43,264 bases of DNA from Clostridia bacterium. Its GTDB lineage: Bacteria; Bacillota; Clostridia; Christensenellales; Christensenellaceae. The position numbers and the translations under genes were made by a program. The DNA is taken from contig JAAUYQ010000047.1 in assembly GCA_014805015.1 (NCBI GenBank), positions 18,167-61,430 of the forward strand, read 5' to 3'. This document shows, piece after piece, positions 21,781-23,319 of this stretch (positions are counted from its first letter, which is position 1; each line of letters opens with the position of its first letter). Under the pieces are notes generated by a model. That model was not told the origin of the DNA. It saw nothing but the letters and a program-made list of their open reading frames with translations, and searched no databases.

Positions 21781-22407
21781 TCACGCAGACGGCGTTCCGC
21801 TGTGTGCGGAGACAAGGACCTGCATAACAGTCAGTTCAGACAGTATGCGGTCATGGTCGAGCCGCCGCATCTCCTGTGCGTGCTCTGCCGCAGCCTCCAG
21901 CTGCGCCCGGCGCTGCGCCGCCCTTTTGGCATCCCGCGCTGCATTGATAGCATTGACCTGCGCCACCCGTTCCGGGGAATCCCCGCCGCCGCAGATGAAT
22001 GTCACTGTTCCATCATCATGAACCACAACACCGCAGGGCTCAAATGTGAGTCCCCTGGCCGCAGCCTGCGCCGTGTACGTCGGAATCATGTCAAAACAGT
22101 GATCAATTGCACCCTCGTACCAGGCAGCGACTTCTGGGTCCCGCGCCATCTCCGACACGATATTCGGGGCAATGACCACGTCGTCCCCATGCATTGCCCG
22201 GCCGGCTCGCTCCAGCGCGTCCGGATCCCGCGGGATGCTCTCCACGCGGAAGTGGGCGCCATATTTGCTCTGCAGATGCTGAACATACTCAGTTTCGCGC
22301 GCAGCTTCTGCCGCCGAGGCAAAGCTGCTCTGCCCGGCGACCCGATCCCGGATACCTGGATACGCCCCAAAGGCTGTTCCCTGCAGTGCCGCCCCCTGAA
22401 TCTGCAT
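21781..22407 (-). CDS. DUF6033-like protein of unknown function
   Basis: A 208-residue soluble protein without signal peptide or membrane segment. The core, starting at YVQHLQSKYGAHFRVESI and continuing through VVIAPNIVSEMARDPEVAAWYE and FEPCGVVVHDDGTVTFICGG, resembles Clostridial proteins annotated as DUF6033 (recalled, not searched). The C-terminal third is an Arg/Ala/Glu-rich predicted helix or coiled coil (about 150-190). The start ATG has a strong AGGAGG 7 bases upstream. It lies directly upstream of the broken radical SAM gene on the same strand, but the spacing of several hundred bases argues against a tight operon. Function unknown. Confidence 0.7.
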   Translation of the reverse strand: MQIQGAALQGTAFGAYPGIRDRVAGQSSFASAAEAARETEYVQHLQSKYGAHFRVESIPRDPDALERAGRAMHGDDVVIAPNIVSEMARDPEVAAWYEGAIDHCFDMIPTYTAQAAARGLTFEPCGVVVHDDGTVTFICGGGDSPERVAQVNAINAARDAKRAAQRRAQLEAAAEHAQEMRRLDHDRILSELTVMQVLVSAHSGTPSA

Positions 22408-23057: not shown

Positions 23058-23074
23058 AGGAGGTAATGTCATCC

Positions 23075-23224
23075 ATGAGAATCCGGTACTACGTAATTTT
23101 GCTGGCACTGCTGGCTGTCTTCTTTTTCTGCGCCTGTGCTCCGCCCGCAGACAATACTCAAATGGAAATCGTGGGCGGCGCCGACGGACCGACTGCAGTC
23201 TGGGTCGCCGGTGAGCTTTCATGA
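23075..23224 (+). CDS. 49-residue membrane or lipoprotein-like peptide with GGADGPT motif
   Basis: A small gene with its own signals. AGGAGG (23058-23063) lies 11 bases before this ATG; an in-frame ATG at 23066 is too close. A terminator follows at 23287-23319. The product has a basic N-terminus (MRIRYY), a hydrophobic stretch of about 12 residues (VILLALLAVFFF), then CAC, where the second Cys could be a weak lipobox Cys. A short acidic exposed part follows, and the last 20 residues contain EIVGGADGPTAVWVAG. That resembles the conserved GADGPT segment of the beta subunit of Na+-translocating decarboxylases (OadB/GcdB family), but the rest of that roughly 370-residue, multi-helix protein is absent. 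A true decarboxylase role is very unlikely. Function unknown. Confidence 0.7.
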   Translation: MRIRYYVILLALLAVFFFCACAPPADNTQMEIVGGADGPTAVWVAGELS

Positions 23225-23286
23225 TGTCCGGGGGCTGCATGCGCAGGTTCAGACATGCCAAAAATATATTTGAACGGATACGCGAG

Positions 23287-23319
23287 CTGCCGTCTTTTAA
23301 GAAGGCAGTTCTTTTTTTG
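23287..23319 (+). terminator. Rho-independent terminator after the small peptide gene
   Basis: A 10-bp stem (23287-23296 with 23299-23308, one mismatch) closes a 2-base apex and is followed by TTCTTTTTTT. It isolates the 49-residue peptide gene from the kinase-like gene downstream. Confidence 0.8.

Follow-up and report, generated by a model that had tools for sequence, protein, structure and literature searches.

P0001, a 49-residue gene of a Clostridia bacterium, most likely encodes a lipid-anchored peptide that in its mature form consists essentially of a linker and a 16-residue motif, and this motif is shared with one segment of OadB, the beta subunit of Na+-pumping decarboxylases, and with dozens of unrelated proteins. 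We tentatively read P0001 as a small lipoprotein and near-minimal carrier of a short linear motif that serves for docking on the outer membrane face; the partner would most plausibly be the OadB pump, or else a factor recognising the tip of its H1 hairpin. We consider this reading a little short of probable.

A gene for a predicted small lipoprotein

In the window (the whole 43,264-nt stretch of DNA that was analysed), P0001 has its own ribosome-binding site and terminator and a hydrophobic N-terminus with a pair of cysteines, C19 and C21, all of which a preliminary description of this DNA had noted and all of which we could confirm (Table 1). The N-terminus has the parts of a bacterial lipoprotein signal, namely an n-region with K/R, a hydrophobic core and a lipobox ending in Cys, with F-C-A-C21 satisfying the lipobox rule (a PS51257-type rule). 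An in-frame ATG at 23066, which would give 52 residues, is less likely to be the start, since just 2 nt separate it from AGGAGG. The terminator is absent from the terminators listed by a consensus scan, and no sigma-70-like promoter was found just upstream of the gene. The peptide had been described as ending in GGADGPT, which turned out not to be so, as nine residues follow this core.

Table 1. Features in and around P0001 (window positions)
Feature	Position	Strand	Details
DUF6033 protein gene	21784..22407	-	PF19498, E 1e-20; 5' of P0001, opposite strand
Ribosome-binding site AGGAGG	23058..23063	+	11 nt upstream of ATG 23075
49-aa ORF (P0001), predicted lipoprotein with motif	23075..23224	+	MRIRYYVILLALLAVFFFCACAPPADNTQMEIVGGADGPTAVWVAGELS; ATG 23075, stop 23222-23224; sole match of such length in its own genome
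Signal peptide, residues 1-20	23075..23134	+	R2, R4; hydrophobic core YYVILLALLAVFFF; F-C-A precedes Cys21
Cys21, predicted lipid-attachment residue	23135..23137	+	Lipobox rule; mature part ~29 residues
16-residue motif, residues 29-44	23159..23206	+	QMEIVGGADGPTAVWV; common to OadB H1 and unrelated carriers; profile positions -5 to +10
Invariant core GGADGPT, residues 34-40	23174..23194	+	Asp is the counterpart of OadB Asp203
Intrinsic terminator	23284..23318	+	Hairpin 23284-23311, -15.7 kcal/mol, z -3.06; U7 23312-23318

The genes on either side of P0001, the DUF6033 gene and a cytidylate-kinase-like gene as its downstream neighbour, do not suggest a decarboxylase, and the full-length OadB gene of this genome sits elsewhere, on contig C39. 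No Rfam match was found around P0001. Protein and motif-pattern searches of 17 genomes of the same family returned no P0001 ortholog; its twin is a 47-residue lipoprotein of Agathobaculum massiliense (L181), with nine residues between Cys and motif, which is likewise a near-minimal carrier. P0001 fits the motif profile (see below) less well, with V at -1 and E at -3, and its residues outside GGADGPT beat 99.9% of random segments on a profile made from unrelated carriers. About 0.04 chance matches to the core are expected per genome of this size, as estimated from base composition. A chance match was rejected on the basis of a reversed-pattern control and of the flank test of P0001.

The motif matches the H1 hairpin tip of OadB

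A profile with one member per cluster of carriers gave the consensus S-[IV]-[GA]-[IV]-I-GGADGPT-[SQEA]-[IV]-[FYI]-[VI]-[SA]-G for positions -5 to +12, within which the 16-residue block reads roughly S-[IV]-[GA]-[IV]-IGGADGPT-x-[IV]-[FY]-[VI]. Residues beyond the search pattern are conserved as well; the searches demanded the core, so that its invariance is partly built in, and core variants such as IGGADSPTKVF do occur. Set against 103 distinct OadB segments, the motif shows matching residue preferences between about -5 and +10 and a sharp divergence beyond. In OadB this segment forms the tip of the H1 helical hairpin, where Asp203 belongs to the first Na+ site (PMC7274780). The likeness to OadB that had been proposed for P0001 stands, with an extent of about 16 residues rather than six or seven. 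An OadB paralog (L318:1095-2246, + strand) has IGSSDGPTSIY in place of IGGADGPT, and this variant string recurs in several genomes.

Beyond the GGADGPT tip with its Na+-binding Asp, P0001 has nothing of the OadB architecture of some 350–400 residues in two inverted repeats of membrane helices and hairpins: its 49 residues include one hydrophobic segment, and H2 Ser382 and Asn412, which complete the Na+ sites of OadB, are missing. This agrees with the earlier observation that the rest of OadB is absent, and makes P0001 one reused, membrane-tethered OadB segment rather than a remnant. The only Pfam and NCBIfam matches of P0001 are to OadB, and they score far below the cut-offs of both family models, with 18.7 bits against PF03977 (cut-off 31.6) and 19.5 bits against TIGR01109 (cut-off 190.6), so the expected mislabelling as decarboxylase beta would not arise at curated thresholds; the shared motif also accounts for the weak matches to decarboxylase beta that small proteins give. 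An OadB pseudogene was rejected, given that there is no similarity beyond the motif and that many carriers show purifying selection.

Unrelated proteins carry the motif

In six of the 17 same-family genomes the motif occurs not only in OadB but also in one more, unrelated protein; these carriers are HAAS-type membrane proteins (L003, L063, L064), M56-type receptors (L065, L066) and a membrane-anchored protein of 624 residues (L062). A scan of 391 genomes of the class, with a pattern that shunned the commonest OadB residue after GGADGPT, yielded 48 matches, compared with none for the reversed pattern. A scan of species genomes and a scan of viral contigs contributed further carriers. With OadB itself and matches without hydrophobic flanks left out, 116 distinct ORFs fell altogether into 55 clusters when compared by blastp (E<1e-4) with the motif masked. 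Two clusters look like chance matches, and the 53 kept are an upper bound on the number of families, short proteins clustering poorly. The string GADGPTHH in DXS (L048, L077) and several out-of-context matches were dropped as unrelated.

The carriers include lipoproteins, M56/BlaR1-type receptors, HAAS/PadR partners, HTH membrane proteins, rhodanese lipoproteins, Lgt fusions, membrane peptides of 50–100 residues and tandem triplicates, with rhodanese, Big_14, HTH_3, HAAS, Peptidase_M56 and LGT proteins among those that have a name, and the motif may be N-terminal, internal, C-terminal or in tandem. Small ORFs resembling P0001 were thus found as anticipated, among them the A. massiliense lipoprotein and the membrane peptides; at the same time, small size and a C-terminal position do not define the group, the motif being present also in large receptors, ABC binding proteins, rhodanese lipoproteins and Lgt fusions. 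Isolates of Agathobaculum massiliense, Dorea, Oscillibacter, Niameybacter and Peptoniphilus are among the carriers, and the motif is therefore not a metagenome artefact.

Outside Clostridia, proteins from bins of the spirochaete Treponema (L163, L237, L238, L263) have the motif at the N-terminus, ahead of a membrane helix. Three tandem copies occur in Peptoniphilus-type proteins of 98–109 residues (L133:2690-2986, L145:2915-3211 and L259:6346-6675, all on the - strand), the first two encoded between trpS and valS, and an ABC-type substrate-binding protein (L074:2075-3328, - strand) has two copies straight after its signal peptide. A Lachnospiraceae family of about 220 residues (L121:606-1271, + strand, and homologs) has an N-terminal motif, and in two genomes the motif and an L121-type globular domain follow Lgt as a C-terminal fusion (L150:6264-7721, + strand; L167:3891-5306, - strand). 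Lipobox cysteines receive their lipid from Lgt, prolipoprotein diacylglyceryl transferase, and lipoproteins are numerous among the motif carriers. A phage or plasmid origin was rejected, as tblastn with the consensus peptide and with the L121 protein gave zero matches in phage and plasmid collections (the short peptide was possibly filtered out); the few viral-contig matches are probably host flanks or prophages.

Membrane placement, selection and co-occurrence with OadB

In most clusters a hydrophobic segment or a lipidated Cys lies 5–25 residues away from the motif, and the motif is on the outer side, going by the signal peptide, the positive-inside rule or the topology of BlaR1. From Cys21 to GGADGPT there are 12 residues in P0001, and in 19 of 22 lipoproteins this gap is 7–12 residues. 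M56/BlaR1-type receptors have the motif in loop 2, after TM4 or deep in the ectodomain, on the outer side by BlaR1 topology, and since these are different outer segments, the receptors seem to have gained it repeatedly. The outer-face rule is not universal, as two families without membrane segments look cytosolic (L121 with its Lgt fusions, and L127/L148), and in a few carriers the motif is more than 100 residues from any predicted membrane segment. In the structural model of the L121 family, pLDDT is <50 in the motif region and about 93 in the adjoining domain, which predicts that the motif is disordered there, as a linear motif would be; a PDB fold search with the globular domain gave no match. 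The L148-family model is poor as a whole (mean pLDDT 60), so low confidence at its motif says little.

Selection acts on the protein sequence of the motif while its codons drift. Purifying selection, which the preliminary description had suggested looking for, is seen where homologs exist. For example, among four homologous TM-motif-TM proteins of 94–99 residues from different bacterial families (L312–L315), L313 and L314 agree at 16 of 16 motif residues over 11 silent codon differences and share 37% identity elsewhere; the motif of L315 is less conserved (69–75%). A HAAS pair gave dN 0.074 and dS 0.43, a triple-repeat gene shows three silent differences and zero replacements, and in the L121 family alignment the motif is the longest invariant run. 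The same block in unrelated proteins, conserved at the protein level, is what characterises a promiscuous short linear motif. All four synonymous codons are used for each of the motif residues Gly, Ala, Pro and Thr. A mobile element at the DNA level was rejected, because all synonymous codons occur and copies within one gene differ silently.

In the 391-genome class sample, OadB is present in all 24 genomes in which the pattern search had found a carrier versus 263 of 367 others (p = 4.6e-4, uncorrected for kinship), and at the genus level in 19/19 carrier genera versus 151/204 others (p = 0.0045, likewise uncorrected for kinship). In one genus with seven genomes, the lone OadB-positive genome is also the lone carrier. 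The exception is G365, a 75% complete genome from a later, looser search, which is a carrier without detected OadB. The association is partly phylogenetic. It is compatible with the earlier proposal that P0001 is a small partner of a decarboxylase; taken as a whole, the observation made in the preliminary description is confirmed, and its interpretation is supported in part, with the exceptions given above.

Possible role of the motif

We infer that the motif docks to a common partner, for which OadB is the first candidate. Through it, very different proteins would bind this one partner, which would sit at or in the membrane and would most plausibly be the OadB pump or a factor recognising the H1 tip. 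The lipid anchor of P0001 would do no more than keep the motif at a distance of about 10 residues from the membrane, and P0001 may act as a free ligand or competitor by occupying the common partner. In its broader form, with a position-independent docking motif identical to the Na+-binding hairpin tip of the pump, on which unrelated carriers converge to reach one partner, perhaps the pump itself, and with P0001 as a free lipopeptide ligand, the proposal is possible but doubtful.

The motif could instead be the recognition site of a membrane-adjacent protease, whose cut would free the outer portions of lipoproteins and receptors or, in the case of mini-proteins like P0001, a short peptide. Its juxtamembrane position on the outer face, 7–12 residues from a lipidated Cys, and its disordered, Gly/Pro-rich character would suit such a site, and there is precedent in the Pro-Pro endopeptidases of Clostridioides difficile, which cleave close to surface anchors. 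Cutting the TM-motif-TM carriers, however, which are anchored at both ends, would free nothing, two families look cytosolic, and the identity with a membrane-buried OadB segment and the co-occurrence with OadB would be left unexplained; we regard cleavage as unlikely. Docking is favoured over it, though not decisively, because the motif is conserved in doubly anchored and in cytosolic proteins and because of the link to OadB. That the motif is real elsewhere while P0001 itself is a decaying or untranslated copy seems quite unlikely: the missing ortholog in the family, the weaker motif flanks and the lack of a promoter match would fit, but ribosome-binding site, lipobox and terminator are all intact, and the Agathobaculum twin has to be accounted for.

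A membrane-dipping hairpin like the H1 tip, which through weak Na+ binding or insertion into the interface would let the motif sense ions or the membrane on behalf of the attached domain, is improbable. Many carriers are indeed receptors or regulators (M56, HTH-TM, HAAS/PadR), and the same segment of OadB is a hairpin tip with Asp203 in Na+ binding (PMC7274780), but Na+ binding in OadB also requires Ser382 and Asn412 of other elements, which are missing here, and some carriers, such as rhodanese and Big_14 lipoproteins, have no sensor role. Functionless OadB fragments spread by recombination would explain the sequence identity with OadB and the slightly closer codons within one genome (3.39 of 7 alike versus 2.85 when shuffled, p = 0.01, uncorrected for shared codon usage); strong protein-level constraint with codon drift, a 16-residue window that is the same each time and consistent membrane placement make this very improbable. 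Least probable of all, to our mind, are OadB-mimicking decoys that intercept a bacteriocin, phage protein or antibody directed against OadB, since, for all that the motif is displayed near the outer membrane face, in hosts that possess OadB and sometimes in tandem copies, in OadB the segment lies buried within the core of the transporter, some carriers look cytosolic, and the presence of the motif within receptors and enzymes would be poorly explained.

Relation to known systems

That one 16-residue block comes back nearly unchanged in dozens of unrelated proteins, and on the same membrane side, suggests that abundant gut bacteria have a common partner or processing step for it, which seems not to have been looked for so far. 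Short linear motifs are well known as a class; to our knowledge, none is both position-independent and identical to the ion-binding tip of a transporter. A search for GGADGPT, ADGPT or IGGADGPT outside OadB in open-licence PMC full texts gave nothing relevant, and no Pfam or NCBIfam model that was found describes the motif outside OadB, so that, within the open-licence literature, the motif as a reusable part seems undescribed.

The LPXTG/sortase and PEP-CTERM/exosortase signals are likewise single short motifs that occur in unrelated proteins and are tied to the membrane or surface. In contrast to them, the GGADGPT motif is not bound to the C-terminus and lacks their tripartite arrangement of C-terminal motif, membrane helix and basic tail, being found in TM loops, lipoproteins and N-out peptides, and we know of no processing enzyme for it. 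With OadB/GcdB/MmdB (PF03977, TIGR01109), P0001 has in common the 16-residue H1-tip segment IGIIGGADGPTAIFV with Asp203, and it differs in lacking the remaining ~330 residues, the membrane core and the H2 Ser382 and Asn412. Like other small bacterial lipoproteins, P0001 has a short signal peptide with Arg, a hydrophobic core and the lipobox Cys21; what sets it apart from them is that its mature part is essentially the promiscuous motif alone.
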